A stretch of 64,000 nucleotides of DNA from Pelagibius sp. Alg239-R121. GTDB lineage: Bacteria > Pseudomonadota > Alphaproteobacteria > Kiloniellales > Kiloniellaceae. This document shows, piece by piece, positions 1,198-51,554 of the stretch; the stretch's first letter is position 1, and the number at the start of each line of letters is the position of its first letter. Location of the stretch: contig NZ_CAMZOF010000001.1 of NCBI RefSeq assembly GCF_947331435.1, positions 124,001-188,000 on the forward strand, in the 5' to 3' direction. The position numbers and the translations under genes are program-made. The notes under the pieces are model-generated. The model was not told where the DNA came from, did no database searches, and worked only from the letters and a program-made list of their open reading frames with translations.

Positions 1198-1233
1198 ATG
1201 GGAATGAGCTGCGCATAAAGTTCAGCACAGCCC

Positions 1234-6746: not shown

Positions 6747-6778
6747 AATTCGCTCAGATAGGTCTTTCCCGCTGAAGC

Positions 6779-35658: not shown

Positions 35659-36513
35659 ATGGGGAATTTTTCGAGACCAACTTGTCTCGACGACGCCTTG
35701 CGGAACATGGAAAACGGATCGTGGCGAATCCTCGCCGGCGGAACCGATTTCTATCCGGCGCAGGGTGACCGGCCGATCACCGAAAACCTTCTCGACCTGA
35801 CGGCTATCCCCGAACTACGCGGTATCTCCCAGCTTGACGATGGATGGCGCTTTGGGGGTCTGACGACCTGGAGCGACGTCATCAAAGCATCTCTGCCACT
35901 GGCCTTTGACGGCCTGAAAGCGGCGGCTCGAGAAGTCGGATCGATTCAGATCCAAAACAGCGGAACCATTGCCGGCAACATCTGTAATGCATCGCCTGCC
36001 GCCGACGGCATGCCGCCTCTGCTTTCTCTGAGTGCCGAAGTCGAGTTAGTTTCACCAAGCGGAACTCGTCGGATGCCGCTCGACGATTTCGTGACCGGAG
36101 TCCGGTCCACCAGTTGTCGTCCCGACGAGCTTGTACGCGCCGTTCATATCCCGGCCGTCAGCACCGGAAGCCGGAGCGCTTTTTTGAAGCTTGGCGCCCG
36201 GCGTTATCTGGTCATCTCAATTGCAATGGCCGCAGTGCTGATCGATTCAAACGATCAGGGAAAGATTACGCGCGCCCGAATTGCCGTCGGATCCTGTTCG
36301 CCGGTTGCACAGCGCCTGATCGGCCTGGAACAACGCCTGTTGGGTGAATCCGCTGCGAGCGGATTATCTGAACTGGTTACAGGCGGAGATATTTCCGTGC
36401 TCAATCCGATCAACGACGTTCGTGCATCCGCGTCCTATCGTCTGAGTGCCGCGGAAGAATTGGTCCGGCGCGCGCTCGAAGAAGCGGTTAGGCCAGGGGT
36501 CGAAGCGTCATGA
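35659..36513 (+). CDS. FAD-binding subunit of a molybdenum hydroxylase (CoxM-like)
   Basis: A 284-residue flavoprotein subunit of the xanthine-dehydrogenase family. It passes electrons from the iron-sulphur subunit to an acceptor. FAD-binding landmarks are AGGTDFYP near residue 30, GSIQIQNSGTIAGNICNASPAADG (pyrophosphate contact) and KLGARRYLVISIAMAA. The next gene overlaps it by 4 bases (ATGA) and encodes the FeS/Mo subunit, so the two form one enzyme. Start: ATG 35659; GTG 35644 is also in frame, but neither has a strong ribosome site. It opens the cluster of 13 plus-strand genes that ends with a MarR regulator. Confidence 0.9.
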   Translation: MGNFSRPTCLDDALRNMENGSWRILAGGTDFYPAQGDRPITENLLDLTAIPELRGISQLDDGWRFGGLTTWSDVIKASLPLAFDGLKAAAREVGSIQIQNSGTIAGNICNASPAADGMPPLLSLSAEVELVSPSGTRRMPLDDFVTGVRSTSCRPDELVRAVHIPAVSTGSRSAFLKLGARRYLVISIAMAAVLIDSNDQGKITRARIAVGSCSPVAQRLIGLEQRLLGESAASGLSELVTGGDISVLNPINDVRASASYRLSAAEELVRRALEEAVRPGVEAS

Positions 36514-39281
36514 ACGGCGGCATCGAACTTTCCTTTTCGCTAAACGGCGAACCACAGAACGTTATGGCCCCCCCTGCAGAACGCCTGACCAAACTTTTGC
36601 GTGAGCGCTTGGGCAAAACCGGCACAAAGGTTGGCTGCGATGCCGGCGACTGCGGCGCCTGCACAGTGCTGGTCGACGGAGATCCGGTCTGTGCCTGCAT
36701 GATGGCCTCGGCCCAGGTGAATGGCCGCACTGTGACCACGATTGAAGGTTTGGCTGCAAATGGCAGTCTATCAAAACTTCAACAGTCCATGCTTCATCAC
36801 GGGGCCGCCCAGTGTGGAATTTGCACACCAGGCATGATCGTATCCGCGGCGGCCCTGTTGGAAAAAACGTCCACCCCAAACGAAGACGAAATCATGGATG
36901 CGCTGGGCGGCGTGCTTTGCCGCTGTACCGGCTATCGCAAGATCATTCGCGCAGTGATGGACGCACCTGAGTTTGCGGAAGCGCCGCAGCGCAGCAATTC
37001 GGGTGCTGCCGTGGGTGCGCGCCTGAACCGTGTCGACGGAGACGCCAAGGTCAAGGGCACGGAACTGTTCGCCGCCGATGCGGGATTTGCTAACAGCCTG
37101 CTGATACGTGCGATCCGATCACCCTATCATCGTGCAGGCTTCAGATTCGGTGATCTCAAGTCCTACGTCTCGGCTCATCCCGGTGTCGAATGCGTCCTGA
37201 CGGCCGAAGACATTCCGGGGCGCAATCTCTTTGGCGTGATCCCGCCTTTCGCCGATCAGCCGGTCTTTGCAGAACAGGAAACGCGTTTTCGGGGAGAAGC
37301 GGTCGCTGCTGTCGTCGGTGACACCGAGGCGATCGAAGCACTTGATCTCTCCAACTTTCCGGTCGAATGGGAAGAATTGCCGCATACGCTCTTGCCAAGT
37401 GACGCCCTTGAGGAGACTGCACCGCAACTGCACGAAAACCGGCCAGGCAATCAGATGACCAGCGGTTTGGTTCGCTGCGGCGATCAAGAAGCCGGATTCC
37501 GTCAATCCGCCGCAACAGTCAAAGGTCGGTTTAGCACGGGCTATATTGAGCATGCCTACATCGAACCGGAAGCAGGCGCAGCACGGCGAGTGGGAAACCG
37601 GGTTGAAATCAAGGTCTGCACGCAAGCCCCTTACATGAACCGTGACGACATTGCCGCCATCCTCGGAATTGCGCCGGAACAAGTACGCATCATGCCGACG
37701 GCGGTGGGCGGCGGCTTCGGATCAAAGCTCGATCTTTCCACGCATCCATTTCTGGCAATTGCGGCCTGGAAGCTCGATCGAGCGGTCCGCATGGTTTATA
37801 CGCGACCAGAGTCCATGGCCTCGACCACCAAGCGGCATCCCTCCGAGATCACCGCGAAGATCGCTGCGACCCAAGACGGCAAGCTCTGCGCCATGGAATT
37901 CGAAGGAATATTCAATACAGGTGCCTACGCCTCCTGGGGCCCGACTGTTGCAAACCGGGTCCCGGTGCATGCATCCGGCCCTTATCACATCCCGAATTAC
38001 AGCGCGCGCTCACTTGGCGTTCACAGCAACGGTCCTGTGTCAGGCGCGTTCAGGGGATTCGGTGTTCCCCAATCCGCCATCGCGCAGGAAAGCCTGTTCG
38101 ATGAACTCGCCGACGCTCTGGCGGTCGACCGGCTTGAGTTCAGGATCAACAATGCTCTGGAGAACGGCATTCCGACCGTGACCGGACAGGTTTTCGACCA
38201 AGGCTGCGGCGCAAAGAAATGCCTTGAGACTCTGCGCGGCCGCTGGCAAAGCGCACGCACCAATGCGGCCACTTTCAACGCCAATTCCAAAAACACGGGC
38301 CGTAGACGAGGCGTTGGCCTCTCGGGCCTCTGGTACGGCTGCGGAAACACTTCTCTACCCAACCCCTCAACGATCCGGGTCGGTTTGCGGGACAACGGCA
38401 CGCTGGTGCTTTTCAGCGGCGCCGTCGACATCGGTCAGGGCGCCAACACCGTCATCGCGCAGATCTGCGCCGACGCTGTGGGTCTGCCCGTAGAAGCCAT
38501 GGTCTTCGTCAACGATGATACGGATCTCACGCCGGATGCCGGCAAGACCTCTGCGTCACGCCAAACGTTCATTTCTGGAAAGGCAGCATTCCTGGCCGGC
38601 GAGAATCTGCGCGAAAAGCTGTTGCGCTTTGCCAATGTATCGAATGAAGCCCGACTCGCCCTCGATGGTACGTCCCTGACGGCAAGCGAGGGCGATGCTA
38701 CGCACCGCATCGATCTCGCCAGCCTGGCGATCGACAACGAAGGTTTCGTCGCTCTGGGTGAAGGAACTTTCGACCCGCCCACCTCACCGCTCGATGAGAA
38801 CGGCCAGGGCAATCCTTACGCGGCCTTCGGCTATGGCGCGCAGATGGTTGAGCTGGAAGTCGACGAGGCGCTGGGAACCGTCAAACTGTTGAAACTCACT
38901 GCCGTGCACGATGTCGGCCGCGCCATCAATCCAACTCTGATCGAGGGCCAGATCGAAGGCGGTTCGGCACAAGGGATCGGCCTCGCGCTGATGGAAGAGT
39001 TCATTCCGGGACGCAGCGAAAATCTGCACGATTATTTGATCCCGACTATCGGCGACGTGCCACCGATCGAATCGATCATCCTGGAAGAACCGGATGCCTT
39101 CGGCCCCTACGGCGCCAAAGGACTGGGTGAACACGTTCTGGTCGCCACCGCGCCGGCAATTCTCAATGCGATCCGGGACGCCACTGGTGCCACCATCCGA
39201 AATCTGCCCGCCACACCTGACAAGGTCCGTTCGGCGATCGTTGCGGTTCAAACACAACAGGTGTCAGATGAAGCAGGCTGA
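36510..39281 (+). CDS. Molybdenum hydroxylase, fused [2Fe-2S] and Mo-binding subunit
   Basis: A 923-residue fusion of the small iron-sulphur and the large molybdopterin subunits, which are separate genes in most relatives. Residues 1-165 hold two [2Fe-2S] sites: GCDAGDCGACTVLVDG and CGICTPGM with LCRCTGY. From about 180 to the end is the Mo domain with GGGFGSK, SGAFRGFGVPQ and the catalytic GAKGLGEH (Glu873). Such enzymes hydroxylate carbon next to a ring nitrogen using water. The substrate is unknown; the neighbouring 6-hydroxynicotinate-reductase-like gene suggests a pyridine-type acid. It overlaps the FAD subunit by 4 bases and the next gene by 14 bases. An alternative would be an isoquinoline-, aldehyde- or CO-type oxidoreductase. 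Confidence 0.92.
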   Translation: MNGGIELSFSLNGEPQNVMAPPAERLTKLLRERLGKTGTKVGCDAGDCGACTVLVDGDPVCACMMASAQVNGRTVTTIEGLAANGSLSKLQQSMLHHGAAQCGICTPGMIVSAAALLEKTSTPNEDEIMDALGGVLCRCTGYRKIIRAVMDAPEFAEAPQRSNSGAAVGARLNRVDGDAKVKGTELFAADAGFANSLLIRAIRSPYHRAGFRFGDLKSYVSAHPGVECVLTAEDIPGRNLFGVIPPFADQPVFAEQETRFRGEAVAAVVGDTEAIEALDLSNFPVEWEELPHTLLPSDALEETAPQLHENRPGNQMTSGLVRCGDQEAGFRQSAATVKGRFSTGYIEHAYIEPEAGAARRVGNRVEIKVCTQAPYMNRDDIAAILGIAPEQVRIMPTAVGGGFGSKLDLSTHPFLAIAAWKLDRAVRMVYTRPESMASTTKRHPSEITAKIAATQDGKLCAMEFEGIFNTGAYASWGPTVANRVPVHASGPYHIPNYSARSLGVHSNGPVSGAFRGFGVPQSAIAQESLFDELADALAVDRLEFRINNALENGIPTVTGQVFDQGCGAKKCLETLRGRWQSARTNAATFNANSKNTGRRRGVGLSGLWYGCGNTSLPNPSTIRVGLRDNGTLVLFSGAVDIGQGANTVIAQICADAVGLPVEAMVFVNDDTDLTPDAGKTSASRQTFISGKAAFLAGENLREKLLRFANVSNEARLALDGTSLTASEGDATHRIDLASLAIDNEGFVALGEGTFDPPTSPLDENGQGNPYAAFGYGAQMVELEVDEALGTVKLLKLTAVHDVGRAINPTLIEGQIEGGSAQGIGLALMEEFIPGRSENLHDYLIPTIGDVPPIESIILEEPDAFGPYGAKGLGEHVLVATAPAILNAIRDATGATIRNLPATPDKVRSAIVAVQTQQVSDEAG

Positions 39282-40782
39282 GCAACAAGCGACAGCACCA
39301 AAGAAGGACAAGGCAGCAGAAAAAATCCGCTGCGACGCCTGCCCTGTCATGTGCTACATCGCCGACGGAAAATCCGGTGCCTGCGACCGCTACGCAAATC
39401 ATGACGGTGTACTGGTGCGCCTGGATCCACTGACCATCGTCGAACAAGCCAAAAGCGACGGACACAAGCTCGTACCTTTCATGAATCGGGACGAAGAGTG
39501 GAGCGGCGATCTTGTGGGTCAGAGCGGCTTTGTCACTGCAGTTGGAGCCGGCACGACCTATCCGGACTATAAGCCCGCACCCTTTATCGTTTCCAGCAAG
39601 GTCAGCGATGTTGACATGGTGACCGTCGTGACTGAAGGCATCTTCAGCTACTGCGGCGTCAAAGTGAAGATCGACACCGACCGGCACCTGGGGCCGGAAC
39701 AGGCTGCAGTGCGTGCCGGAGGCGAAGTGGTCGGACACGTCACGACCGGAGAGTACGGATCGCAAATGCTCTCGCTCGGTGGAGTGAATCACCTGACCGG
39801 CGGATCGAAAAAAGAAGGCCGCATCACCTGCGACGCGCTGCTGAACCTCTGCAACGGTGCCGCGGTCGAACTGACCATTGACGAAGGATCCGACGTAGTG
39901 GTCCAGGCCGGAAAGCCGCCGATCGTCAATGGATTCCAGGAAGAGCGTATGCGCGTCGGTTGCGGCTCGGCCACAATCGGCATGTTCGCTCAACAATGGT
40001 TCGGTCACAGCGACGACGTGGTGGTGGTCGACGATCACATCACCGGCGTGCTCTCAGAGCATCAAGCCGGCAAGGTGCTGGGCGTGGAGCCCACCGGTAT
40101 CAAGATCAAAGGCCGCCGATCGACCCCAGGGCGTTATTTTCAGGTCGCGGAACCCGGCGCCGGATGGGGTGGAACCGACATCGACGACCCCCTTGCCATC
40201 CTGGGGGATTTCGATCCCAAGGTCGCCAAACCAGGTCAAAGCCTGCTTATGGTCTCCACCACCGGCGAGCAATATGCCTATTTTGAACTGGATGAAAACC
40301 TGAACCCGGTGGAAGCAGACTTACCGGAAAGCTTGAGAGTCTCGGTCGACCGGATCGCGGAGAACTGCGAGCCGGCCTGCTGTTCTGTTCTCTTCATGGG
40401 TGGCGCCGGCGGGTCGCTGCGCGCCGGCGTCACGGAAAATCCAGTCCGCCTGACCCGTTCGGTCAAAGATACCTTGACCTATGTGTCCTGCGGTGGCGCT
40501 CCGGTTTACGTCTGGCCTGGCGGCGGCATCACGGTGATGGTCGATGTGACCCGCATGCCGGAGAATTCCTTCGGCTACGTGCCGACGCCCGCCATCGTGG
40601 CGCCGATCGAATTCACGATGCGCCTCGATGATTACGAACAACTCGGCGGTTACATGGATGCCGTGGTTTCCATGGAAGACGTCTTGGCGCAAAGCGATTC
40701 TCGCCGTGTACAACATCCCGACGACAACCCCTGGCCCACGACAAGCAAGCTCTTTCGGTGGGATCGGGAGCGCGGGTCATGA
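39268..40782 (+). CDS. 6-hydroxynicotinate reductase-like iron-sulphur flavoprotein
   Basis: A 504-residue protein of the family represented by 6-hydroxynicotinate reductase of the nicotinate-fermenting Eubacterium barkeri, where it reduces the ring to 1,4,5,6-tetrahydro-6-oxonicotinate. The N-terminal CDACPVMC...GAC cluster (Cys22, 25, 29 and 39) fits an iron-sulphur site, and more cysteines occur at ITCDALLNLC, RVGCGSATIG and NCEPACC. The E. barkeri enzyme carries a covalently bound flavin; an ApbE-related protein follows here, which fits. I chose ATG 39268, overlapping the Mo subunit by 14 bases; the longer frame reads through that gene. The substrate in this organism is unproven. Confidence 0.78.
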   Translation: MKQAEQQATAPKKDKAAEKIRCDACPVMCYIADGKSGACDRYANHDGVLVRLDPLTIVEQAKSDGHKLVPFMNRDEEWSGDLVGQSGFVTAVGAGTTYPDYKPAPFIVSSKVSDVDMVTVVTEGIFSYCGVKVKIDTDRHLGPEQAAVRAGGEVVGHVTTGEYGSQMLSLGGVNHLTGGSKKEGRITCDALLNLCNGAAVELTIDEGSDVVVQAGKPPIVNGFQEERMRVGCGSATIGMFAQQWFGHSDDVVVVDDHITGVLSEHQAGKVLGVEPTGIKIKGRRSTPGRYFQVAEPGAGWGGTDIDDPLAILGDFDPKVAKPGQSLLMVSTTGEQYAYFELDENLNPVEADLPESLRVSVDRIAENCEPACCSVLFMGGAGGSLRAGVTENPVRLTRSVKDTLTYVSCGGAPVYVWPGGGITVMVDVTRMPENSFGYVPTPAIVAPIEFTMRLDDYEQLGGYMDAVVSMEDVLAQSDSRRVQHPDDNPWPTTSKLFRWDRERGS

Positions 40783-41669
40783 GCTGGTCTCGCCCCAATG
40801 CCGCAATACTTTCCGACGGGCGCCTGCATCTGCAGCATGGACCAATCGATCTGATTATTGAGGCCACAGCGCAACAGGACTCGCGGGAACACGCTTTGGC
40901 GGCGGCGCAAGCGCGTTTTCAGAGTGTCCTGTTCGAACTTGTTGACGAACTGCCTGACCTGCGGTTGGAAACATCCGGCGACACAGACCCGCAGGGCCGG
41001 ATTGCATGCCAAATGGTTCGCGCAACGAAGACTCTCACCAAGCGACACTTCATCACGCCCATGGCTGCAGTTGCCGGCGCGGTCGCAGACGAGGTGCTTG
41101 AAGCAATAACCGATGCGGCGAAAATCGAAAAAGCCTATGTAAACAACGGCGGCGATATCGCTCTCTATCTAGCGCCGGGACAATCCTTTACAACCGGGTT
41201 GGTCGCCAATCCCGAGAGACCGCAGCTCGATGGACGCTTCACCGTCCGCTTCGAGCATCCAATGCGCGGGATCGCCACCAGCGGGCGCCATGGCCGCAGC
41301 TTGTCGCTGGGGATCGCCGATGCCGTCACGGTGCTTGCCGCGAATGCAGCTACAGCCGATGCAGCGGCGACCATCATTGCCAATTGCGTCGACCTGCCCG
41401 GCCATCCCGCAGTCACGCGGCAACCCGCCTGCGAGCTGGATCCGGACAGCGATCTCGGAACCCGTGAAGTCACCACTAGCGTGGGTAAGTTAAGCCATCA
41501 CGAGGTGGCGCTTGCGCTGTCGAGCGGGCTCGCTGAAGCACGTCAGCTCCAGGCAGAAGGTTTAATCCATGCCGCAGTTCTAACTCTGGAAGGCCAAGTC
41601 GAGACCTGCAACGGTAACCTTCCCTTGGCCCTTCACACTCCAACGACAGAAAGAGCGGCCTATGCCTGA
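40779..41669 (+). CDS. UPF0280 family protein (ApbE-related)
   Basis: A 296-residue soluble protein of UPF0280, whose members share the ApbE flavin-transferase fold. Landmarks are VAGAVADEVLEAI near residue 100, VNNGGDIALYL (matching the ApbE glycine-rich VNxGGD segment), GIATSGRHGRSLSLGIADAVTVLA and AATADAAATIIAN. ApbE moves FMN from FAD to a threonine in target flavoproteins. The gene overlaps the reductase gene by 4 bases (ATGA), so I infer that it attaches flavin to that enzyme; this is not shown. No signal peptide is present, so the reaction would be cytosolic, unlike classical lipoprotein ApbE. Confidence 0.85.
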   Translation: MSWSRPNAAILSDGRLHLQHGPIDLIIEATAQQDSREHALAAAQARFQSVLFELVDELPDLRLETSGDTDPQGRIACQMVRATKTLTKRHFITPMAAVAGAVADEVLEAITDAAKIEKAYVNNGGDIALYLAPGQSFTTGLVANPERPQLDGRFTVRFEHPMRGIATSGRHGRSLSLGIADAVTVLAANAATADAAATIIANCVDLPGHPAVTRQPACELDPDSDLGTREVTTSVGKLSHHEVALALSSGLAEARQLQAEGLIHAAVLTLEGQVETCNGNLPLALHTPTTERAAYA

Positions 41670-42246
41670 CGTCGAGTTGCGCAAGACATTTGTTACCGTC
41701 GAAACCATCTATCATGAGTTTGGTCCGGTGCCCGCCATGCCGCTTCGGCGTGCGGCAGCTCTTGCCATCATCCGCAATCCCTTCGCGGGGCATTACGTCG
41801 AGGACATTGCCGGCTTCATGGACGACCTGAAGCCTCTGGGCCTGGATATGGCTGATCGTTTGATTGCGGCATTAGGTGGCGATCCGGACGTCGTCGAGGG
41901 TTTTGGCAAAGGGGCGATCGTTGGAACCGGCGGCGAGTTGGAACACGGGGCGCTCTGGCATGTGCCCGGCGGCTACTCCATGCGCGAGCGGCTAGGCGAC
42001 TCAAAAGCGATCGTGCCTTCGACCAAAAAGGTCGGGGGCATGGGTACACGGATCGATATCCCGATCACCCACATCAACGCCTCTTACGTGCGCAGCCACT
42101 TCGATGCCATTGAACTCGGGTTGCCGGATGCGCCACACGCGGACGAAATGCTGCTCGCCCTGGTCATGACTACGGGGGCCAGAATTCATAATCGGGTCGG
42201 CGGCCTCGCGGCGGCGGATATCAAAGGAGAGGACGGTTTGCGATGA
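41662..42246 (+). CDS. DUF1185 (amino acid synthesis-type) protein, copy A
   Basis: A 194-residue protein of DUF1185, usually annotated as an amino acid synthesis family protein without proof of function. Shared segments with the next gene are AAALAIIRNPFAGHYVEDI, VGTGGELEHGALWH, ALVPSTKK-type (IVPSTKKVGGMG), ITHINASYVRSHFDAIELGLPDAPHADE and RVGGLAA. It overlaps UPF0280 by 8 bases and copy B by 4 bases. In this cluster the two copies could be subunits of one hydrolase or accessory protein acting on the reduced ring product; that is inference. Confidence 0.8.
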   Translation: MPDVELRKTFVTVETIYHEFGPVPAMPLRRAAALAIIRNPFAGHYVEDIAGFMDDLKPLGLDMADRLIAALGGDPDVVEGFGKGAIVGTGGELEHGALWHVPGGYSMRERLGDSKAIVPSTKKVGGMGTRIDIPITHINASYVRSHFDAIELGLPDAPHADEMLLALVMTTGARIHNRVGGLAAADIKGEDGLR

Positions 42247-42827
42247 GCGCAAAGATCAGAAAAATAATCACGTCGGTCGAAGAAACTCATCAGGAAATCG
42301 GCCGGAAGATCTCTCCACCAACACGTAAGGCGGTGGCGGTTGCCGTCATCGAGAACCCCTTCGCTGGAAAGTACGTCGAAGACCTGGATCCGCTGATGCA
42401 GATCGGCGCCGAATTAGGCGGCATGTTGGGAGATGCCTGCGTTGCGGCCCTCGGAATCGAGCCTGCTCAAGCTGAGAGTTACGGCAAAGCTGCCATGGTC
42501 GGCGAGAATGGTGAGTTGGAACATGCCGCCGCAATTCTGCACCCGCGTCTGGGCGCACCTTTACGCAAGGCGGTCGAAAAAGGCGCGGCCCTGGTGCCGT
42601 CGTCGAAGAAGATGGGCGGCCCGGGTCAGGCGCTCGATGTTCCTTTGGGTCATAAGGACGCCGCATATGTGCGCTCCCACTTTGATGGCATTGAAGTAAG
42701 CCTTCCGGATGCGCCACGCGCCAATGAAATCATGGTTGCTGTATCGGTAACAGACTCCGGTCGGCCGCTACCGCGAGTTGGTGGTTTGAAGGCGGATGAA
42801 GCCGTTGGCGAGGATGGGCTGCGCTGA
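42243..42827 (+). CDS. DUF1185 (amino acid synthesis-type) protein, copy B
   Basis: A 194-residue paralogue of the preceding gene with the same length and motif order: VIENPFAGKYVEDLDPLM, VGENGELEHAAAILHPRLG, LVPSSKKMGGPG, GHKDAAYVRSHFDGIEVSLPD-type and RVGGLKADEAVGEDGLR. Both copies end in the same GEDGLR. The overlap ATGA with copy A indicates coupled translation and so a likely hetero-oligomer. The 140-base gap after it separates it from the ferredoxin gene. Confidence 0.8.
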   Translation: MSAKIRKIITSVEETHQEIGRKISPPTRKAVAVAVIENPFAGKYVEDLDPLMQIGAELGGMLGDACVAALGIEPAQAESYGKAAMVGENGELEHAAAILHPRLGAPLRKAVEKGAALVPSSKKMGGPGQALDVPLGHKDAAYVRSHFDGIEVSLPDAPRANEIMVAVSVTDSGRPLPRVGGLKADEAVGEDGLR

Positions 42828-42969
42828 AACCAGCTCTGCTCAGGAGTAAACCGGAGAAAGAATTGACGTTCTGAAGATCATAAACGAATAGCAATAGGGA
42901 TCGAAATACCGCATTACAGATGGCTTAACTGGCTCTATTCGACCCGAACTTTAGAACGACGAGGTAAAT

Positions 42970-43284
42970 ATGATTGTGTCCGTGATCGACCGCGAAGGTC
43001 AAACCCATGAACTGACCGCCAAGCCGGGACAGGTACTGATGCGCCTGCTGCGCGAAGCCGACATGGGGATCAAAGCAGAATGCGACGGCTGTTGCGCCTG
43101 TGCGACCTGCCACATCTATGTGGACAACGACTGGTACGGCAAGTTGAACACGCCGGAAGATGAAGAACAGGACATGCTTGATGAGGCCTTCGACGTTCAG
43201 GAAAATTCGCGACTGTCGTGTCAGATCACGTTGAGCGAGGCCCTGGACGGATTGAAAGTCGTGATCGCACCTGACTGGGATTGA
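42970..43284 (+). CDS. [2Fe-2S] ferredoxin, adrenodoxin/putidaredoxin type
   Basis: A 104-residue electron carrier. Cluster ligands are Cys38, Cys44 and Cys47 (CDGCCACATC, spacing C-x5-C-x2-C) and Cys83 (RLSCQI). The adrenodoxin-type end (LKVVIAPDWD) is present. It most likely feeds electrons to the Rieske oxygenase encoded 60 bases downstream; a dedicated ferredoxin reductase is not in this cluster, so an unlinked one must serve. GAGG sits 5 bases before ATG 42970. Confidence 0.9.
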   Translation: MIVSVIDREGQTHELTAKPGQVLMRLLREADMGIKAECDGCCACATCHIYVDNDWYGKLNTPEDEEQDMLDEAFDVQENSRLSCQITLSEALDGLKVVIAPDWD

Positions 43285-43344
43285 TACCGGCCCAAAAGCC
43301 GGCTCGATCAACCAGTTTGGTGCTAGCCACTGGAGTAAGAGGTG

Positions 43345-44412
43345 ATGGAATACGTTCGGAATACTTGGTATGTCGCAGGATGGTCGCGCGAGTTCGATCG
43401 CACCCTCGCGCGTGCAACGATTCTGGAAGAGAACGTCGTCCTTTACCGCAAGAATGACGGTGGGGTTGCCGCCTTGGAAGACCGCTGTCCCCACCGGCTG
43501 ATGCCGCTATCCAAAGGCAAGCTCAAGGACGACTGCATCCAGTGCGGTTACCACGGCATGACCTTCGACCACGACGGTAGCTGTGTGCGGATTCCAGGCC
43601 AGGAACGCATCCCCGAAAGTGCCTTCGTCCGCACCTATCCGACCCATGAACGCCACGGTATTGTTTGGATTTGGATGGGCGATGCCGACAAGGCGGACCC
43701 GGATCTAATCTTCGATCTGCCACAATTCACCGACCCCAAGTGGTCGATGCATCACGGCGACGCCCTACATCTGAAATCCAACTATCTCAATGTCGCAGAA
43801 AACCTCTGTGATCCGGCGCATGTGAGTTTTGTTCACCCCACGACCCTGGGCAACGCGGCCAGCGAGAATGTCCCAGTCACAACCGAGCGTGCCGGCGATG
43901 TGGTTATCACCTCGCGCTGGATCCGCGATGCGCCACCGATCGGTTTTTTCCAGAAATTCGGGGGCTTTAGCGGCAATGTCGACCGTTGGCATTACTACTA
44001 CCTCCATGCGCCCTGTGTGGCTGCGATCGATTTCGGCAGCTCTGATGCAGAACTCGAACTGGCGGAGGATCGGCGGGACGAGGGGGTGCGAATCTTCGCG
44101 CTGCACTTCATGACCCCAGTCAATGCGACCTACACGATCGATCGCTGGATGCATCTGCGCAACACCGCGGTGGAGGATGAAACCGCGGGCGCACAGATGG
44201 ACGAGTTATTCCGGGTCGCCTTTGCCGAGGACAAGGTGATCCTGGAAGCGATTCAGGAAGAGGAACTGCGGCCCCGCAGCCGCCGGCCGATCAGGCTCGC
44301 CATCGACAAAGGACCGAATTTCTACCGCTGGATCGTCGACAAGATGATCGCTGCGGAAACCCAACCGGACGCGGAGACCGCAGGAGACGCTTCGCAGTCG
44401 GCCGCCCAATAA
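43345..44412 (+). CDS. Rieske oxygenase, vanillate-demethylase/aromatic ring type
   Basis: A 355-residue oxygenase subunit. The Rieske [2Fe-2S] motif is CPH...CGYH (Cys48, His50, Cys67, His70). The mononuclear iron site lies in NLCDPAHVSFVH (Asn153, Asp156, His159, His164); a further acidic ligand is expected downstream. This single-component alpha-only layout fits the VanA/dicamba/stachydrine-demethylase group, which oxidatively removes methyl groups or hydroxylates a ring; the substrate is unknown. Electrons would come from the adjacent ferredoxin. I chose ATG 43345, 9 bases after GGAG; GTG 43342 is too close. Confidence 0.9.
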   Translation: MEYVRNTWYVAGWSREFDRTLARATILEENVVLYRKNDGGVAALEDRCPHRLMPLSKGKLKDDCIQCGYHGMTFDHDGSCVRIPGQERIPESAFVRTYPTHERHGIVWIWMGDADKADPDLIFDLPQFTDPKWSMHHGDALHLKSNYLNVAENLCDPAHVSFVHPTTLGNAASENVPVTTERAGDVVITSRWIRDAPPIGFFQKFGGFSGNVDRWHYYYLHAPCVAAIDFGSSDAELELAEDRRDEGVRIFALHFMTPVNATYTIDRWMHLRNTAVEDETAGAQMDELFRVAFAEDKVILEAIQEEELRPRSRRPIRLAIDKGPNFYRWIVDKMIAAETQPDAETAGDASQSAAQ

Positions 44413-44461
44413 CCCTGGGGCAACAACAGAATAACAAGAACTGAAAAACAGGAGAGAACGG

Positions 44462-45676
44462 ATGTACAGGAAAGTGATTGGTTTGACGGCCGCCGTTGCG
44501 ATGGCCGCCAACGTTATGGGAATGGGGACGGCAGCCGTAGCCGCGGATACGATCAAGATCGGCGACATCAACAGCTACAAGCGCCTACCGGGTCACACGA
44601 TCCCCTATAAAAACGGCGCAGTTCTGGCGATCGAAACCATCAACGCCAGCGGCGGCGTGCTCGGCAAGCAATTGGAACTGGTTTCGCGCGACGATCAGGG
44701 CAAACCCGGTGAAGCCATTAAAATTGCTGAAGAACTTTTCACCAGTGACGAAGTAGCCATGATCTCCGGCTCGCTCTTCAGTCACGTCGGATTGGCGCTG
44801 GCTTCCTATGCGGGCCAGAAGAAACGGCTGTATCTGGCCGCTGAGCCACTCGCCGATGCTCTGGTCTGGGGTAAAGGCAACCGCTACACCTTCCGTCTCC
44901 GGCCTTCGACTTACATGCAAGCGGCCATGCTGGCCGAGATCGCAGCAAAGAACCCAGCCAAGCGCTGGGCCACGATTGCGCCCAACTACGCATACGGCAA
45001 GGACGCGGTCGCGGCCTTCAAGAAGGTGCTGATGGAAAAGCGCCCTGATGTGGAATTCGTTACGGAACAATGGCCTGGTCTCTTTAAGATCGACGCCGGA
45101 GCGGAAGTTCAGGCGATCGAAGCCGCCAAACCGGATGCCGTTTACAACGTGACTTTCGGTGGCGATCTGGCGAAGTTCGTGCGCGAAGGCGCACTGCGCG
45201 GGCTGTTCAAAGACCGGCTGATTATGGGCCTTCTGACCGGTGAGCCGGAATATCTCGATCCGCTGAAGGACGAGGCGCCGGAAGGTTGGGTCGTAACAGG
45301 TTATCCCTGGTACGACATTGAGGATTCCGCCCATAAATCCTTCGTCGAAGCCTACGAGAAACGCTGGGAAGACTATCCCCGGATCGGCTCGCTGGTCGGC
45401 TACAACACGATGCTGAGCATCGCGGCCGCCATCAAGAAGGCGGGCTCGACCGACACGGAAGCTCTGGTCGATGCCATGAAAGGCCTATCGCTGGATACGC
45501 CTTCCGGTTCAGTTACTTACCGGGCGATCGACCATCAATCCACAATGGGTGCCTGGGTCGGTACGACGACCGTCAAGGACGGCAAGGGCATGATGGTCGA
45601 CTGGGCCTACAAGGAGGGCGCGAACTACCTGCCTTCCGACGCGGAAGTGAAGAAACTGCGTCCGGCGACCGACTGA
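44462..45676 (+). CDS. Branched-chain-type ABC transporter substrate-binding protein
   Basis: A 404-residue periplasmic binding protein (type 1, LivJ-like). The signal peptide runs to AAVAA. It carries IKIGDINSYKRLPGHTIPYKNGAVL-type opening, GKQLELVSRDDQGKPGEAIKIAEELF and PAKRWATIAPNYAYGKDAVAAFKK, all typical of the group that imports aromatic and amino-acid-like compounds. AGGAG lies just upstream of ATG 44462. Its position between the Rieske gene and the liv permease genes suggests it captures the substrate of the whole pathway. A hairpin follows it and probably protects its mRNA. Confidence 0.92.
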   Translation: MYRKVIGLTAAVAMAANVMGMGTAAVAADTIKIGDINSYKRLPGHTIPYKNGAVLAIETINASGGVLGKQLELVSRDDQGKPGEAIKIAEELFTSDEVAMISGSLFSHVGLALASYAGQKKRLYLAAEPLADALVWGKGNRYTFRLRPSTYMQAAMLAEIAAKNPAKRWATIAPNYAYGKDAVAAFKKVLMEKRPDVEFVTEQWPGLFKIDAGAEVQAIEAAKPDAVYNVTFGGDLAKFVREGALRGLFKDRLIMGLLTGEPEYLDPLKDEAPEGWVVTGYPWYDIEDSAHKSFVEAYEKRWEDYPRIGSLVGYNTMLSIAAAIKKAGSTDTEALVDAMKGLSLDTPSGSVTYRAIDHQSTMGAWVGTTTVKDGKGMMVDWAYKEGANYLPSDAEVKKLRPATD

Positions 45677-45699
45677 TCCAACGCGACCTTTTAAGCGAT

Positions 45700-45727
45700 C
45701 CCGGCGGGGGCGAAACATCCCGCCGGG
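45700..45727 (+). other. Intercistronic stem-loop after the binding-protein gene
   Basis: CCCGGCGGG (45700-45708) and CCCGCCGGG (45719-45727) pair perfectly over 9 bp without a T-tract. Such hairpins between the binding-protein gene and the permease genes commonly stabilise the upstream mRNA, so that the binding protein is made in excess. Confidence 0.6.
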
Positions 45728-45839
45728 AGATCGGTTTGCATGAGCGAAATGACACCGCTTTGCCTCGAAAAACGGTCGTTATAACCCGCAATAACCACAG
45801 GCGTTCGAAAGTCATGGGCTTCGACGTTAGCGAGATCTG

Positions 45840-47717
45840 ATGGACTTCTTCGTCGTTCAAATTCTGACCGGCCTGGCGAATGCCGCTGCGCTGTTTCTGG
45901 TCGCCTCGGGACTGTCGATCATCTTCGGCGTGACCCGGGTGGTCAACTTCTCGCACGGCTCCTTCTACATGCTGGGCGCCTACATCGCCTATTCGCTCAT
46001 GACGGTGCTGCCGGGCTTCATCGGCTTCTGGGCGAGCATTCTTCTGACCGGCGTCGCGGTCGGCCTGATCGGGCTGATCGTCGAGCTGGGTGTGCTGCGG
46101 CCGATCTATAAATCGCCGGAGCTGTTCCAGCTGGTCGCGACCTTCGGGGTCATCCTGGTGATCCAGGATCTGACTCTTCTGATCTGGGGTCCGGACGACC
46201 TGATCGGCAAAAGATCCCCCGGTTTCGAGGGCGTGGTGAAGATCGGCGATCAGCTGCTGCCGGCCTACGACCTGGTGCTGATCTTCCTGTCGTTCCTAGT
46301 GCTGGGGGGGCTCTGGTATCTCTTCAATAAGACGCGCGCCGGAATCCTGGTGCGCGCCGCGACTCAGGACCGGGAGATGGTCGGTGCGCTGGGCGTCAAC
46401 CAGTCCTGGCTGTTCAGCGGTGTCTTCTTCCTGGGCTCGGCTTTGGCCGGTATCGGCGGCGCGGCGCAGCTGCCCAAGGGCGGCGCCGACCTGCTGATGG
46501 ATTTCAACATCCTGGCCCCGGTCTTCGTGGTGGTGGTGATCGGCGGCATGGGCAGCATCCCCGGCGCCTTCGTCGCGGCCCTGATCATCTCCGAGCTCAA
46601 CGTCTTCGGCGTCCAGCTTTTGCCGCAAAGCACTCTGGTGCTGATGTTCGTGGTCATGGCGGTGGTGCTGATCTTCCGGCCCTGGGGTCTCTTTGGCAGG
46701 CCGGAGATCGTCGGCAGTCACGGCAGTCAGGGTCCGCCCGAAGCGCCCCTGCGCGCTTTTTCGGGCCGGCTCTGGCTGGTCCTCGCCGCCTGCGCGCTGG
46801 CCCTGGCGGTCGTACCGCTGTTCGGCGGCAACTTCCTGCAGGTGCTGCTGGCCGACGTGATCATCGCCTGCCTCTTCGCCACCAGCCTGCACTTCATCCT
46901 GGGGCTCGGCGGACTGGTCTCCTTCGGCCATGCCGCGACCTTCGGCGGCGGGGCCTATGCCGCGGCGCTGATGGTGCAGTACGCCGAGACGCCCATGGAG
47001 CTCGCCCTCCTGCTGGCGCCGCTGGCCGCCGGGCTGCTGGCCCTGGTCATCGGCTGGTTCTGCGTGCGCCTCTCGGGCGTCTACTTCGCCATGCTGACCC
47101 TGGCCTTTGCGCAGGTGGTCTGGTCGATCGCCTTTCAGTGGAGCGAGGTCACCGGCGGCGACGACGGCATTCTGGGCATCTGGCCGAGCGCCTGGGCGAG
47201 CAGCACCACGGCCTACTACTACCTGGTTCTGGCGCTGGGCATCGGCGGCATCACGACGCTGCTGTTCATGGCCTATACGCCCTTCGGCTACGCCCTGCGC
47301 GGCAGCCGGGATTCGGCGCTGCGCAGCGAAGCCATCGGCATCAACGTGCGGCTGGTGCAATGGTCGGCCTTCATCTTCGCCGGCATGATGTCCGGGCTGT
47401 CCGGCGCGCTTTTCGTCTTCGCAAAGGGCAGTATCTTTCCCACCGAGCTGGAGATCGCCCGCTCCTTCGACGCACTGATCATCGTCTTCCTGGGCGGCGT
47501 GCAGTCGCTGTTCGGGCCGCTGGCCGGCGGCGTGGTCTTTACCCTGCTGCAGGACTGGCTTTCGCGCTTCGAGTACTGGCGGCTATGCCTCGGCCTGATG
47601 ATCATCGCCATCGTGATCCTGCTGCCCAACGGCCTCGTCGGTGTGGGACATTGGGTCCGAGGACGTTTTGGCCGGAATGCCGACCCCCTGAGCGATGCTG
47701 AAGAGGAGGCGGCCTGA
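45840..47717 (+). CDS. Fused LivH-LivM branched-chain-type ABC permease
   Basis: A 625-residue inner-membrane protein in which both permease subunits are joined in one chain. The LivH half (about 1-290) contains ASGLSIIFGVTRVVNFSHGSF and the coupling segment VRAATQDREMVGALGVN. The LivM half (about 310-605) contains LGGLVSFGHAATFGGGAYA, VRLSGVYFAMLTLAFAQV and SRDSALRSEAIGINVRLVQ. Normally these are separate genes. GC content is clearly higher than in the enzyme genes before 45.7 kb and codons are strongly G/C-ending, so transporter and enzyme genes may have different origins. It overlaps livG by one base (TGATG). Confidence 0.93.
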   Translation: MDFFVVQILTGLANAAALFLVASGLSIIFGVTRVVNFSHGSFYMLGAYIAYSLMTVLPGFIGFWASILLTGVAVGLIGLIVELGVLRPIYKSPELFQLVATFGVILVIQDLTLLIWGPDDLIGKRSPGFEGVVKIGDQLLPAYDLVLIFLSFLVLGGLWYLFNKTRAGILVRAATQDREMVGALGVNQSWLFSGVFFLGSALAGIGGAAQLPKGGADLLMDFNILAPVFVVVVIGGMGSIPGAFVAALIISELNVFGVQLLPQSTLVLMFVVMAVVLIFRPWGLFGRPEIVGSHGSQGPPEAPLRAFSGRLWLVLAACALALAVVPLFGGNFLQVLLADVIIACLFATSLHFILGLGGLVSFGHAATFGGGAYAAALMVQYAETPMELALLLAPLAAGLLALVIGWFCVRLSGVYFAMLTLAFAQVVWSIAFQWSEVTGGDDGILGIWPSAWASSTTAYYYLVLALGIGGITTLLFMAYTPFGYALRGSRDSALRSEAIGINVRLVQWSAFIFAGMMSGLSGALFVFAKGSIFPTELEIARSFDALIIVFLGGVQSLFGPLAGGVVFTLLQDWLSRFEYWRLCLGLMIIAIVILLPNGLVGVGHWVRGRFGRNADPLSDAEEEAA

Positions 47718-48511
47718 TGTCTTTCCTCGAAGTCCGCAATCTCTCCAAATCCTTCGGCGGCGTGAAGGCGGTCAACGAAGTCTCGCTGGACCTGAACGAA
47801 GGCGAGCTGCTGGCCCTGATCGGCCCGAACGGCGCGGGCAAGACCACCTGCTTCAACATGCTCTACGGCCAACTGCCCCCGGACCGGGGTTCGGTCAAGC
47901 TGAATGGCCAGGAACTGATTGGCCAGACGCCGCGCAGGATCTGGCGCATGGGGGTCGGGCGGACCTTTCAGATCACGGCGACCTACGCCTCCATGACCGT
48001 CATGGAGAACGTGCAGATGGCCCTGATCTCCCACCACCGGGGCGTCTTCTCGGTCTGGCCGCCCGCGTCGCGCCGCCACCGCGACGAGGCGCTGGCCTTG
48101 CTGGAGCTGGTGGGCATGGAGAACCAGGCGGGGCGCGCGGCTTCGGTGCTGGCCTATGGCGATCTGAAGCGCCTGGAGCTGGCCATCGCGCTCGCCCACA
48201 ATCCGCGCCTGCTGCTGATGGACGAACCCACCGCCGGCATGGCGCCGAAGGAACGCGTGGGGCTGATGCAACTGACCGCCGATATCGTGAAGGACCGCAA
48301 AATCGGCGTGCTCTTTACCGAGCATGACATGGACGTGGTCTTCGCGCATGCGCATAGAGTCCTGGTGCTGAACCGGGGCGAGATCCTGGCCGAAGGCACG
48401 GTCGATGAGGTGCGCGCCGACCCGAAGGTGCAGGAGGTGTATCTGGGCGGCGGCTCGACCTTCGGGGGCGCAGAAGGAGAAAGCGCTGAGGGGGATCTGG
48501 CCGATGCTTGA
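47717..48511 (+). CDS. livG: Branched-chain-type ABC transporter ATP-binding protein LivG
   Basis: A 264-residue ATPase with Walker A (GPNGAGKTT), an ABC helix (LAYGDLKRLELAIAL), Walker B (LLLMDEPTAGM) and the LivG-typical H-loop (LFTEHDMDVVFAHAHRVLVLNRG). It pairs with LivF on the fused permease. It overlaps the permease gene by one base and livF by 8 bases. GC-rich as its neighbours. Confidence 0.93.
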   Translation: MSFLEVRNLSKSFGGVKAVNEVSLDLNEGELLALIGPNGAGKTTCFNMLYGQLPPDRGSVKLNGQELIGQTPRRIWRMGVGRTFQITATYASMTVMENVQMALISHHRGVFSVWPPASRRHRDEALALLELVGMENQAGRAASVLAYGDLKRLELAIALAHNPRLLLMDEPTAGMAPKERVGLMQLTADIVKDRKIGVLFTEHDMDVVFAHAHRVLVLNRGEILAEGTVDEVRADPKVQEVYLGGGSTFGGAEGESAEGDLADA

Positions 48512-49205
48512 ACTGGACCGCATCAATTCCTTCTACGGCCGCGCGCACATCCTGCACGATCTGTCGCTGTCGGTGGCCGAGGGCGAGGTCGTCGCCCTGC
48601 TGGGGCGCAACGGCGCGGGCAAGTCGACCACCATGAAAAGCATCATGCGGCTGGTCGCGGCCAAGTCGGGCAAGATTAGCTACGCCGGCCGGGACATCAC
48701 GGCCCTGCCGCCCCATAACATCGCCAAGCTGGGCGTCGGCTACGTGCCAGAGGAGCGGCGCATCTTCACCGACCTGACCATTCTGGAGAACCTGGAGGTC
48801 GGCCGGCAGACGCCGCGCGCGGGCGCGCCGGAATGGACGCCAGGAAAACTCTTCAAGCTCTTCCCCAACCTGGAGGAGCGGCGCAACAATCTGGGCGGCG
48901 CCATGAGCGGCGGCGAACAGCAGATGCTGACGATCGCCCGCACCCTGATGGGCAATCCGAAATTCGTGCTGCTGGACGAACCCTCGGAAGGTCTTGCGCC
49001 GGTGATCGTCGAACAGGTCGCCTTCACCATCCGCGAACTGAAAAAGCTGGGTCTAACCATCCTGCTGTCGGAACAGAACCTGCACTTCGCCAAACTGGTC
49101 GCCGACCGCGCCTACATCATCGAGCGCGGCAGCGTGCAATATGATGGGACGATTGAAGAACTGGAAAACAACGAAGAGGTCCGGAACGCGTATTTGAGTG
49201 TTTAA
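48504..49205 (+). CDS. livF: Branched-chain-type ABC transporter ATP-binding protein LivF
   Basis: A 233-residue ATPase with Walker A (GRNGAGKST), the LivF signature (MSGGEQQMLTIARTLM), Walker B (FVLLDEPSEGLAPV) and the H-loop (LLSEQNLHFAKLVADRAYIIERG). I chose ATG 48504, which overlaps livG and follows GAGGGGGA; the longer frame from 48405 runs inside livG. It ends the transporter operon and is followed by short hairpin repeats and a 20-bp inverted repeat. Confidence 0.94.
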   Translation: MLELDRINSFYGRAHILHDLSLSVAEGEVVALLGRNGAGKSTTMKSIMRLVAAKSGKISYAGRDITALPPHNIAKLGVGYVPEERRIFTDLTILENLEVGRQTPRAGAPEWTPGKLFKLFPNLEERRNNLGGAMSGGEQQMLTIARTLMGNPKFVLLDEPSEGLAPVIVEQVAFTIRELKKLGLTILLSEQNLHFAKLVADRAYIIERGSVQYDGTIEELENNEEVRNAYLSV

Positions 49206-49213
49206 GCTGTTTT

Positions 49214-49291
49214 ATTAGGTTCGGTTTACACCGAACCGGCACCAGGAGATGCGCTTTGATTAGGTTCGGCTCGCGCCGAACCGGCACCAGC
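49214..49291. repeat. Tandem copy of a hairpin unit after livF
   Basis: Two near-identical units, TTAGGTTCGG-N4-CCGAACCGGCACCAG, at about 49214-49242 and 49258-49291. Each contains the inverted repeat GGTTCGG/CCGAACC with a 6-base loop. They follow the livF stop directly and may act as tandem terminators or as protein-binding sites near the MarR gene. Confidence 0.6.
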
Positions 49292-49294
49292 CCT

Positions 49295-49348
49295 CTCCCC
49301 CTCCCGGCCACCCATCGGAATTATCATGTGGGTGGCCGGGAGGGGGAG
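49295..49348. repeat. Perfect 20-bp inverted repeat between livF and the MarR gene
   Basis: CTCCCCCTCCCGGCCACCCA (49295-49314) and its exact complement TGGGTGGCCGGGAGGGGGAG (49329-49348) flank a 14-base loop. No T-tract follows. It is far too long and perfect for chance and could be a bidirectional terminator, an RNA processing site or a small mobile remnant. Confidence 0.75.
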
Positions 49349-49413
49349 CGGGCCGGCACCGAGCCAAATTAAAACAAACCAAATCACGCGTCCGAAACAC
49401 AACTGAGAAACAC

Positions 49414-49884
49414 ATGAAGCAAACCGCCGCAGCCAAAAGACCGCAGAGCGAAGAAGCCCCGGAGAGCGAGAATCACCTCTATCACCTGGACCAGCAGTTC
49501 GGCTTCATCCTGCGTCAGGTCAGCCAGCGCCACACGGCGATTTTCGCCGAGACCATCCCCGAGGGCCTGACGACAACCCAGTTCGCCACCATCGCCCGCC
49601 TCTATGAAATGGGCTCCTGCTCCCAGAACCGCCTGGGCCGCCTGACCTCCATGGACGCCGCCACCATCAAGGGCGTCATCGCCCGCCTGGCCAAACGCGG
49701 CGTCGCTGAAACCTGGACCGACCCGGAAGACAGCCGGCGTTTACTGGTGGGATTGACGGATGCAGGGCGCGCGTTGGCGGAACGGGCCTTTCCGAAGGCC
49801 TTCGAGATTACGGACAAGACGCTGGAGCCGTTGAGTGAAAGGGAGCGGGAGGTGTTGATGGAGCTGTTGGTGAGGTTGCGGTAA
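49414..49884 (+). CDS. MarR family transcriptional regulator
   Basis: A 156-residue winged-helix regulator. The recognition-helix region is RLTSMDAATIKGVIARLAKRG and the wing DPEDSRRLLVGLTDAGRAL, both typical. MarR proteins usually repress a nearby operon until an aromatic ligand releases them. Its position at the end of the N-heterocycle cluster suggests it senses the substrate. No clear MarR operator was identified upstream of 35659. Confidence 0.92.
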   Translation: MKQTAAAKRPQSEEAPESENHLYHLDQQFGFILRQVSQRHTAIFAETIPEGLTTTQFATIARLYEMGSCSQNRLGRLTSMDAATIKGVIARLAKRGVAETWTDPEDSRRLLVGLTDAGRALAERAFPKAFEITDKTLEPLSEREREVLMELLVRLR

Positions 49885-49939: not shown

Positions 49940-50959
49940 TTAAGGTTTCGTCCAACTTTTGATTGACTTGGCTGCTTTTTGAATTGCGGCAACAACATCG
50001 TGGATAGGTTGAGTGCCACCCGAAACTAAAGCTGAAACGATGACAACGTCCAAGGCTGCTGTTAACTCCTTATGATCTTTTGAAATTGGAAGATTAAGTG
50101 CCTCAACAAGGCCAATCGATCCTAATGCACCGACAAGCGCTCCAACGACAACCCCAAATCTCAGCGCCCAAGTTCTCGTTTCTGCGCGGTAGCTCAATAG
50201 ATCAATATCTGCAATCACCAGGTCATTTTGAAGCCTGACGTCCTTTGAAAACTTACTGCGCTTTCGTAAGCCTTCAACGATCGCTTCGCGAATCTCCCGG
50301 CCAGAACGTCGCCTAGCCGATATGACGACTTCGTTAACTCGCTCAAGAATAGCCGCGACAAGAGTTAAGATCAGCAACAGATAACCTATCTCAGCCAAAG
50401 CTCCCAAAGTCTTGACTGCATCAGGTATTTTCTCAAACAGCGTGGTGCTCGGTGGCGAATAACCGCGACAAGCTGAGATTGCAAGCACAATGGCAAATGT
50501 TGCCCCTGTTTTCCACCAGCGAGCGAGGGCAGTTTCGGATGCGTTGGGAACACAAGTAAAGGCACTCAACGGGGAGGTTTCGAAGATAGGTGTTTCAGTG
50601 ACGGAATCCACCGCGAAGTTAAGGTCAACACAAACCTTTCGCTTCAGATCACCTTTCTTCGGGCTGCTAACGGAAACAGGTAAGCTCAATGACAAACCAG
50701 TATCAGACGGTTGAAAACTTACTTCCGTTTTGAGAGTTTCCCCGCTTTCCCAAAACCATCCGACGCTATTCGTTACCTCGGAAGACGAAAGGCCTGAAAC
50801 AGAAACTGTCGTCCTGACGGGAACCTGGACATTCGTGATCTTCCCTTTTGCATTACCATCGCTTTGCACAAAATCAACGATTATTGTGAGAGTGCCGATT
50901 AACTTCGTGATTTGATCAGCATGCCAGAGAAGCCGGGTGCTAAGGTGAGGCTCTATCAT
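49940..50959 (-). CDS. Unknown membrane protein of the AT-rich cassette
   Basis: A 339-residue protein not assignable to a family. Residues 1-140 are beta-rich and Ser/Thr/Val-rich (VSVSGLSSSEVTNSVGW, LSLSLPVSVSSPKKG) with two Cys. Hydrophobic segments follow at about 151-165 (ATFAIVLAISACRG), about 190-210 (IGYLLLILTLVAAILE) and about 265-285 (GVVVGALVGALGSIGLVEAL), separated by basic helices (RRRSGREIREAIVEGLRKRSK). The last part (VIVSALVSGGTQPIHDVVAAIQKA) resembles the end of small-channel or holin-like proteins. ATG 50959 overlaps the upstream gene by 4 bases (ATGA). Codon use is clearly AT-richer than the rest of the window. I do not recognise it. Confidence 0.7.
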   Translation of the reverse strand: MIEPHLSTRLLWHADQITKLIGTLTIIVDFVQSDGNAKGKITNVQVPVRTTVSVSGLSSSEVTNSVGWFWESGETLKTEVSFQPSDTGLSLSLPVSVSSPKKGDLKRKVCVDLNFAVDSVTETPIFETSPLSAFTCVPNASETALARWWKTGATFAIVLAISACRGYSPPSTTLFEKIPDAVKTLGALAEIGYLLLILTLVAAILERVNEVVISARRRSGREIREAIVEGLRKRSKFSKDVRLQNDLVIADIDLLSYRAETRTWALRFGVVVGALVGALGSIGLVEALNLPISKDHKELTAALDVVIVSALVSGGTQPIHDVVAAIQKAAKSIKSWTKP

Positions 50960-51477: not shown

Positions 51478-51554
51478 AGTTCTTTTCCTTCAAAAGACTT
51501 GTAACTGGAATTAGGCGCACGAATTTTATTTCGAACGATTTTGCAAAAACACGC

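Follow-up and report, generated by a model that had tools for sequence, protein, structure and literature searches.

We analysed a 64,000-nucleotide stretch of the genome of Pelagibius sp. Alg239-R121 (contig NZ_CAMZOF010000001.1, positions 124,001 to 188,000; hereafter the window), in which 13 genes, all on the plus strand at 35659..49884, form a collinear cluster whose neighbours mostly overlap by a few bases. The cluster combines a molybdenum (Mo) hydroxylase, a homologue of 6-hydroxynicotinate reductase (Hnr), a Rieske oxygenase and a Liv-type importer. A sequence-only reading of the window had assigned these genes to a hybrid reductive and oxygenative pathway for an N-heteroaromatic compound. 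Open reading frames (ORFs) and Pfam and NCBIfam matches confirmed that the genes it named were all present on the plus strand, in the order and at the coordinates given and mostly overlapping. The whole gene order was kept in two loci of the same genus (L075 and L076), and 68 of the 385 genomes sampled from the class carried Hnr. Thus, the cluster is not a chance arrangement.

The first two genes encode a Mo hydroxylase of the xanthine-oxidase family. The FAD-binding subunit, moFAD (35659..36513), matched PF00941 (FAD_binding_5, 135 bits) and PF03450 (CO_deh_flav_C, 50 bits); its ORF opens at GTG 35644, and an ATG lies at 35659. The large subunit, moLS (36510..39281), carries N-terminal 2Fe-2S domains and matched Fer2, Fer2_2, MoCoBD_1 and MoCoBD_2. 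These are followed by Hnr (39268..40782, 504 aa), assigned by identity to its orthologues, a UPF0280 protein (40758..41669, alternative start ATG 40779; NF003322, 386 bits with a cut-off of 290) and two DUF1185 (AA_synth) proteins, a (41662..42246) and b (42243..42827), which matched PF06684 with 232 and 249 bits, respectively. A 2Fe-2S ferredoxin (42970..43284; PF00111, Fer2) precedes a Rieske oxygenase of the VanA/dicamba-demethylase type (43342..44412; PF00355, 79 bits; PF19112, VanA_C, 160 bits). The importer consists of a Liv-type substrate-binding protein (44462..45676; PF13458, Peripla_BP_6, 228 bits), placed by its tree in a Rieske-linked clade, a fused LivH-LivM permease (45840..47717; two stretches of PF02653, BPD_transp_2), ATPase 1 (47717..48511; PF00005, ABC_tran, and PF12399) and ATPase 2 (48504..49205; PF00005), whose ORF opens at 48405 and whose start was placed from the translation. 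The last gene encodes a MarR-family regulator (49414..49884; PF01047), and MarR/NicR-type genes adjoin many Hnr loci.

Loci for comparison were collected as a non-random set. At least 588 relatives of Hnr were confirmed in GTDB genomes, of which the best 80 were kept; together with chosen loci, and after 4 near-identical loci were dropped from 144, they gave 140 Hnr loci. The counts over 112 Hnr loci given below refer to those with at least 7 kb on each side (28 were left out), including the window and the two same-genus loci. Genomes of the class were drawn separately for Hnr (385) and for enamidase (376), and 20 Rhodobacteraceae loci were chosen from 72 matched genomes. Loci of one clade are not independent, and Fisher values and the hypergeometric probability are therefore descriptive.

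No match to the Hnr-like protein was detected in Pfam, NCBIfam or the Protein Data Bank (PDB); its name comes from plasmid orthologues annotated as 6-hydroxynicotinate reductase and from Afipia and Bradyrhizobium orthologues that share 73% identity with it. It is thus a 6-hydroxynicotinate reductase by homology only (72-74% to Bradyrhizobium, Afipia and R. palustris orthologues). Eight cysteines (C22, C25, C29, C39, C129, C188, C232 and C367) were invariant among 32 Hnr sequences. According to PMC3511419, reduction of 6-hydroxynicotinate to tetrahydro-6-oxonicotinate was discovered in Eubacterium barkeri and later reported in aerobic Azorhizobium. The same paper infers reductive nicotinate catabolism for strain SG-6C, whose Hnr is 42% identical to that of E. 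barkeri (PMC3511419). The view that the reductase marks an anaerobic route was therefore not borne out.

The cluster described in that text, reported for Azorhizobium, Bradyrhizobium, Rhodopseudomonas and SG-6C, includes the first three steps, an ABC transporter and two conserved unknown proteins (PMC3511419). NicB-NicA, Hnr (72-74%), UPF0280, DUF1185, the same Liv type, a MarR-type gene and enamidase were present in 10 of the 11 named Bradyrhizobium loci of the best-80 set (L224, L226, L229, L233, L235, L241, L246, L248, L252 and L255); the eleventh (L242) is a shorter stretch and shows no enamidase. The same set was found in two Afipia loci (L214 and L245) and in a metagenome-assembled genome (MAG) of R. 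palustris (L218). We take the two conserved unknown proteins to be UPF0280 and DUF1185. Since Bradyrhizobium and Afipia carry the Hnr-UPF0280-DUF1185-Liv core beside nicotinate dehydrogenase and enamidase, the core of the window's cluster is, judged by its orthologues, a variant of the known reductive nicotinate cluster. The sequence-only reading had taken the whole combination for an undescribed route. Its outline of an N-heteroaromatic carboxylate route with a Mo hydroxylase, a ring reductase, an O2-dependent Rieske oxygenase and its own importer stood, but an entirely undescribed route did not, because most of the cluster is of the published type.

The large subunit moLS matched nicotinate dehydrogenase (PDB 3hrd) with an E value of 4e-77, which was not its best PDB match. 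Among the 112 Hnr loci, moLS was found in 70 and NicB in 30; no locus had both, and neither was recognised in 12. This mutual exclusion suggests that moLS and NicAB perform the same step, and the Mo hydroxylase of the window would be a dehydrogenase of nicotinate or a relative of it.

UPF0280 and DUF1185 were near-constant neighbours of Hnr (110 and 103 of the 112 loci, respectively). Both accompany Hnr whichever Mo hydroxylase or ring opener is present, and they are therefore more likely to act in or close to the reduction step than in ring opening. The gene at 40758..41669 had been labelled ApbE-related. The gene is real and its product distantly ApbE-like, but its score for the ApbE flavin transferase family (PF02424, 22.6 bits) fell below the gathering score of 25.6, and the identity was rejected in favour of UPF0280; the match to PDB 2o34 had an E value of 2e-10. 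The two DUF1185 proteins are 46% identical to each other. Protein b is an orthologue of the solved protein SPO0826 (PDB 2qtp; E 1.9e-99, 80% identical in the structural alignment). Both matched PF06684, with a fold like that of Bacillus chorismate mutase, and structural alignment of this fold, considered also against the Rid/Toblerone cyclic-amide hydrolases, gave no functional lead. The context suggests that transporter genes noted alongside DUF1185 encode a pyridine importer.

Two side observations concern the core genes. The hnr coding sequence of one locus (L112, genome G050) is split over two frames near 9821-11256, and the rest of that cluster is present. Further, seven loci of Acidobacteria-named MAGs (L195, L198, L201, L204, L209, L230 and L240) showed the same moFAD-moLS-Hnr-UPF0280 order with 69-73% identity in Hnr, and DUF1185 in all except the short L198. 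The cluster may cross phyla, or these MAGs may be wrongly binned.

The absence of an enamidase noted by the sequence-only reading holds inside the window but not for the genome. One enamidase orthologue lies on the same contig (C1:200179-201348); it is 26 kb downstream of the MarR gene, and 12 kb separate it from the end of the window. It is 73% identical to the amidohydrolase of a Sulfitobacter pontiacus cluster and aligned with E. barkeri enamidase (PDB 2vun) over residues 6-384 of 390 (E 3.6e-107). The alignment keeps HxH, Glu164, two later His and Asp276, which we take to be active-site residues. Thus, the enamidase of the reductive nicotinate pathway is encoded by the genome, outside the cluster. 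An enamidase at 94% identity was present in all three same-genus genomes searched, where it, too, lies apart from the cluster (at 62-70 kb or on a different contig), and enamidase was found in 6 of 7 genome entries searched. Within the class, 29 of 376 genomes had an enamidase at 70% identity or more, and 28 of these 29 were among the 68 genomes with Hnr (hypergeometric P about 9e-23, with the two draws taken as one set and kinship ignored).

The other 40 of the 68 Hnr genomes are absent from this enamidase list, and HyuAB accounts for some of them. A HyuA-HyuB (hydantoinase/oxoprolinase) pair was observed at the expected place of enamidase in L074, L115, L117, L119, L189, L217 and other loci. 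Among the 112 Hnr loci, 57 had enamidase, 28 had HyuA and only one had both; neither ring opener was seen in the stretches of 28 loci, the window among them. Since the two are near-mutually exclusive, HyuAB appears to replace enamidase, probably by opening the lactam of tetrahydro-6-oxonicotinate in its stead.

The Rieske oxygenase has the Rieske and VanA_C domains, and its translation holds CPH...CGYH and DPAHVSFVH, presumably the Rieske and iron-ligand motifs of a VanA-type enzyme. Its PDB matches were 7qwt (E 1e-40), the dicamba O-demethylase DdmC (3gb4, E 2e-38), SxtDIOX (6wnc, E 3e-22) and the N-demethylase NdmA (6icp, E 1.5e-15). The best named solved relative is thus DdmC, followed by SxtDIOX and SxtT, with NdmA lower. 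The ferredoxin at 42970..43284 would be the electron donor of the oxygenase. Homologues of this ferredoxin were found in 7 of 166 loci examined, all seven with Rieske and all in the window's family; none was found in two further Rieske loci of that family (L078 and L294).

The presence of Rieske (at least 200 bits, a threshold that includes two 40-41% matches 6.6-8 kb from Hnr in L113 and L162) was recorded in 22 of the 112 Hnr loci: 21 of the 70 with moLS, none of the 30 with NicB and one of the 12 with neither. Its distribution followed that of the importer. When 61 fused-permease-type binding proteins were placed in a tree (matches of 300 residues or fewer dropped, and L161, which has no Hnr in its stretch, added), all 19 Rieske rows fell in one starred clade of 21 rows, compared with 0 of 40 elsewhere. 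We then counted changes of the Rieske label on FastTree trees of the 47 loci that hold the binding protein, moLS and Hnr (24 with Rieske at 250 bits, where L113, L162 and the partial L184 were not counted). The binding-protein tree needed 2 changes, compared with 7 for moLS, 8 for Hnr and 8 for UPF0280 (46 rows); of 200 label shuffles, the three listed per tree gave 13-17 changes. A careful binding-protein tree needed 3 changes, and a quick Hnr tree, covering 59 of the 61 rows, needed 8, of which 7 were forced by well-supported branches.

Other counts described the same linkage. Among 33 Rieske loci, a binding protein of the fused type was found in the stretch examined in 26, following Rieske by 1.2-1.4 kb in 25 and divergent in L161. 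A second importer type, with separate LivH and LivM, was seen in 0 of the 22 Rieske loci. All 10 genomes of the class with Rieske at 45% identity or more have Hnr, which is on another contig in two of them (G302 and G398), and Hnr also occurs in each of the 11 plasmid records whose Rieske reaches 60% or more. Rieske was present in 2 of the 20 Rhodobacteraceae loci, both with the importer adjoining, and was not found in the locus nearest to that of R. pomeroyi (DUF1185 96% identical to SPO0826). Two proteins without a Pfam match were observed in loci with the second importer type: a conserved protein of about 487 aa that accompanies it (L072:6737-8200, with relatives in L084, L116, L176, L203 and L280), and one of 457 aa between DUF1185 and this importer (L117:16897-18270, with a relative in L102).

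Because the label changes twice on the importer tree and seven or eight times on the core trees, Rieske tracks import and not the core chemistry; the core enzymes are common to clusters without Rieske. The simplest explanation is therefore that Rieske converts an imported compound into the substrate of the core. An alternative, which we consider unlikely, is that the whole operon has shifted to another N-heterocycle that never becomes nicotinate, with the Rieske step later or midway in the route. The functions of the enzymes are predicted here from sequence, the Mo hydroxylase is not of the NicAB type and Rieske was not seen with NicB, all of which would suit such a shift. However, neither the Mo hydroxylase tree nor the Hnr tree is sorted by the label, so the core enzymes do not track Rieske; further, the same partners and enamidase recur in many moLS clusters that have no Rieske.

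Returning to Rieske as an entry step, its substrate was considered from the relatives of the importer. A plasmid of Roseomonas mucosa that gave no match to Hnr carries related importers beside NicAB (NicB 62% to that of Neorhizobium) and 6-hydroxynicotinate 3-monooxygenase (PDB 5eow, E 5e-189). Given these neighbours, the importer family probably carries pyridine-3-carboxylates. Perhaps the substrate is N-methylnicotinate (trigonelline), a natural compound that would give nicotinate; the N-methylated pyridine acid proposed in the sequence-only reading remains the best guess. Trigonelline is reported in marine particles (PMC8269262). Several plasmid hosts of the Rieske variant (Sulfitobacter and Pseudosulfitobacter) come from seawater or diatom culture, which is circumstantial for trigonelline. 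No sequence of a characterised trigonelline N-demethylase was found for comparison in the literature searched.

We favour, with moderate confidence, the reading that a Rieske/importer entry module for a substituted pyridine-3-carboxylate has been added to an operon for aerobic reductive nicotinate catabolism. The sequence itself shows which genes are present, that the core is orthologous to the published type of cluster, that an enamidase is encoded and that Rieske is linked to the importer; the reactions below are all predicted, above all the second and its substrate. The Liv importer would take up the substituted pyridine-3-carboxylate. Rieske, with the ferredoxin, would then remove or alter the substituent, in the simplest case by N-demethylation of trigonelline to nicotinate and formaldehyde; perhaps the product of this step is 6-hydroxynicotinate rather than nicotinate. 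The FAD/2Fe-2S/Mo hydroxylase would form 6-hydroxynicotinate, and Hnr, assisted or partnered by UPF0280 and DUF1185, would reduce it to 1,4,5,6-tetrahydro-6-oxonicotinate. The enamidase encoded 26 kb away would open the ring; enamidase yields 2-formylglutarate and ammonia. MarR would control the operon. No description of a Rieske and transporter entry module was found in the literature searched, and this module seems to be the new part of the cluster.

Several findings weigh against this proposal. The nearest PDB relative of the Rieske oxygenase, 7qwt, bears a family name only, and SxtDIOX and SxtT, which we take to be saxitoxin-pathway oxygenases, rank above NdmA. The closest solved relatives of the Mo hydroxylase are aldehyde oxidoreductases. 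A ferredoxin reductase was not detected in the neighbourhood of the window's cluster, and no formaldehyde-oxidation gene was recognised beside Rieske, for which no systematic search was made. Growth of R. pomeroyi on trigonelline, described in a passage of PMC8269262, was deleted by a correction (PMC10134881) and is not used here. The linkage itself has exceptions: 7 of the 33 Rieske loci show no fused-type binding protein in the stretch examined (two of them weak 40-41% matches and one a partial stretch), the genomes of L079 and L096, two loci within the Rieske-linked importer clade, gave no match to Rieske (1e-50), and the Rieske of G302 (62-63%) and its Hnr are on different contigs, with no such importer in the stretch around that Rieske (L159). 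Finally, in L161 (G398, 943-10032) a 47% Rieske and a 77% binding protein lie not beside Hnr but beside a LigAB-type extradiol dioxygenase, a metallo-beta-lactamase-fold (MBL) hydrolase and an iron-dependent alcohol dehydrogenase (Fe-ADH), none of which was found near the other Rieske loci examined. If the ligand is the same, the product of Rieske in L161 may be a dihydroxylated ring, which would fit nicotinate poorly.

The arrangement in L161 would also suit a second alternative, in which Rieske and importer have hitch-hiked into the cluster as a module for another aromatic acid, with Rieske acting, for example, as an O-demethylase, and share no more than regulation with nicotinate catabolism. 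O-demethylation is common among VanA-type enzymes, and DdmC is among the PDB matches. However, the lack of the second importer type in Rieske loci suggests that the Rieske-linked importer serves the cluster itself; together with the Roseomonas importers adjoining 6-hydroxynicotinate 3-monooxygenase and the presence of Hnr in every plasmid record with a close Rieske, this makes the hitch-hiking module improbable. Least probable is an oxidative side branch, in which Rieske hydroxylates nicotinate or 6-hydroxynicotinate when O2 is plentiful and Hnr acts when O2 is scarce: the oxygenase and reductase are co-localised, and the sequence-only reading had raised a hybrid route, but the window's cluster has no ring-cleavage dioxygenase, and a link to importer specificity is unexpected for a branch on a shared intermediate.

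Under the favoured reading of an added entry module, the Rieske clade, previously unassigned, and its own Liv importer could form a mobile module that imports trigonelline and N-demethylates it to nicotinate for a ring-reducing pathway in an aerobe, a proposal that we make tentatively. Such a module, which we rate as less likely than not, would combine O2-dependent activation with subsequent reductive dearomatisation within a single operon; it would occur in several proteobacterial lineages and differ from ring opening by TgnAB.

Outside the cluster, three ORFs without a Pfam match lie directly after it on the minus strand (49940-52664), within a low-GC stretch (47% over 50-54 kb, 62-66% on the flanks) that is a possible insertion. 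A gene 4.5 kb upstream of the cluster (29483-31180, minus strand) joins a 2Fe-2S ferredoxin domain to an adenylate/guanylate cyclase domain.

If the proposal is true, bacteria have a further route for trigonelline or a related pyridine betaine, one that searches for TgnAB would miss. Three testable assignments would follow: a substrate for the Rieske clade, a pathway home for UPF0280 and DUF1185, and a role for HyuAB in place of enamidase. The association of UPF0280 and DUF1185 with Hnr helps annotation whatever the Rieske substrate proves to be, because DUF1185, with its solved structures, is still labelled 'amino acid synthesis'.

Among known systems, the cluster of Azorhizobium, Bradyrhizobium, Rhodopseudomonas and SG-6C, compared through the Bradyrhizobium and Afipia loci, shares Hnr, UPF0280, DUF1185, the Liv importer, a MarR-type regulator and the enamidase. 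The window differs from it in having a two-subunit FAD/Mo hydroxylase instead of NicAB, an added Rieske and ferredoxin, two DUF1185 proteins (one in the Bradyrhizobium loci), an importer of another clade and a displaced enamidase. The logic of Mo hydroxylase, Hnr and enamidase is that of nicotinate fermentation in E. barkeri, whose enamidase structure the genome's own enamidase matches; in contrast to that system, the window's host would be aerobic, judging from its relatives, and has a Rieske oxygenase. The oxidative nicotinate pathway (NicAB and NicC) is similar in that related importer and MarR genes lie beside NicAB and 6-hydroxynicotinate 3-monooxygenase in Roseomonas mucosa, whereas a Pfam scan of the window's cluster found neither a NicB-type subunit nor this monooxygenase. 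Finally, the VanA-family demethylases DdmC and NdmA share the Rieske and VanA_C architecture with the window's oxygenase, which, unlike them, has a separate small ferredoxin and stands in the context of Hnr.

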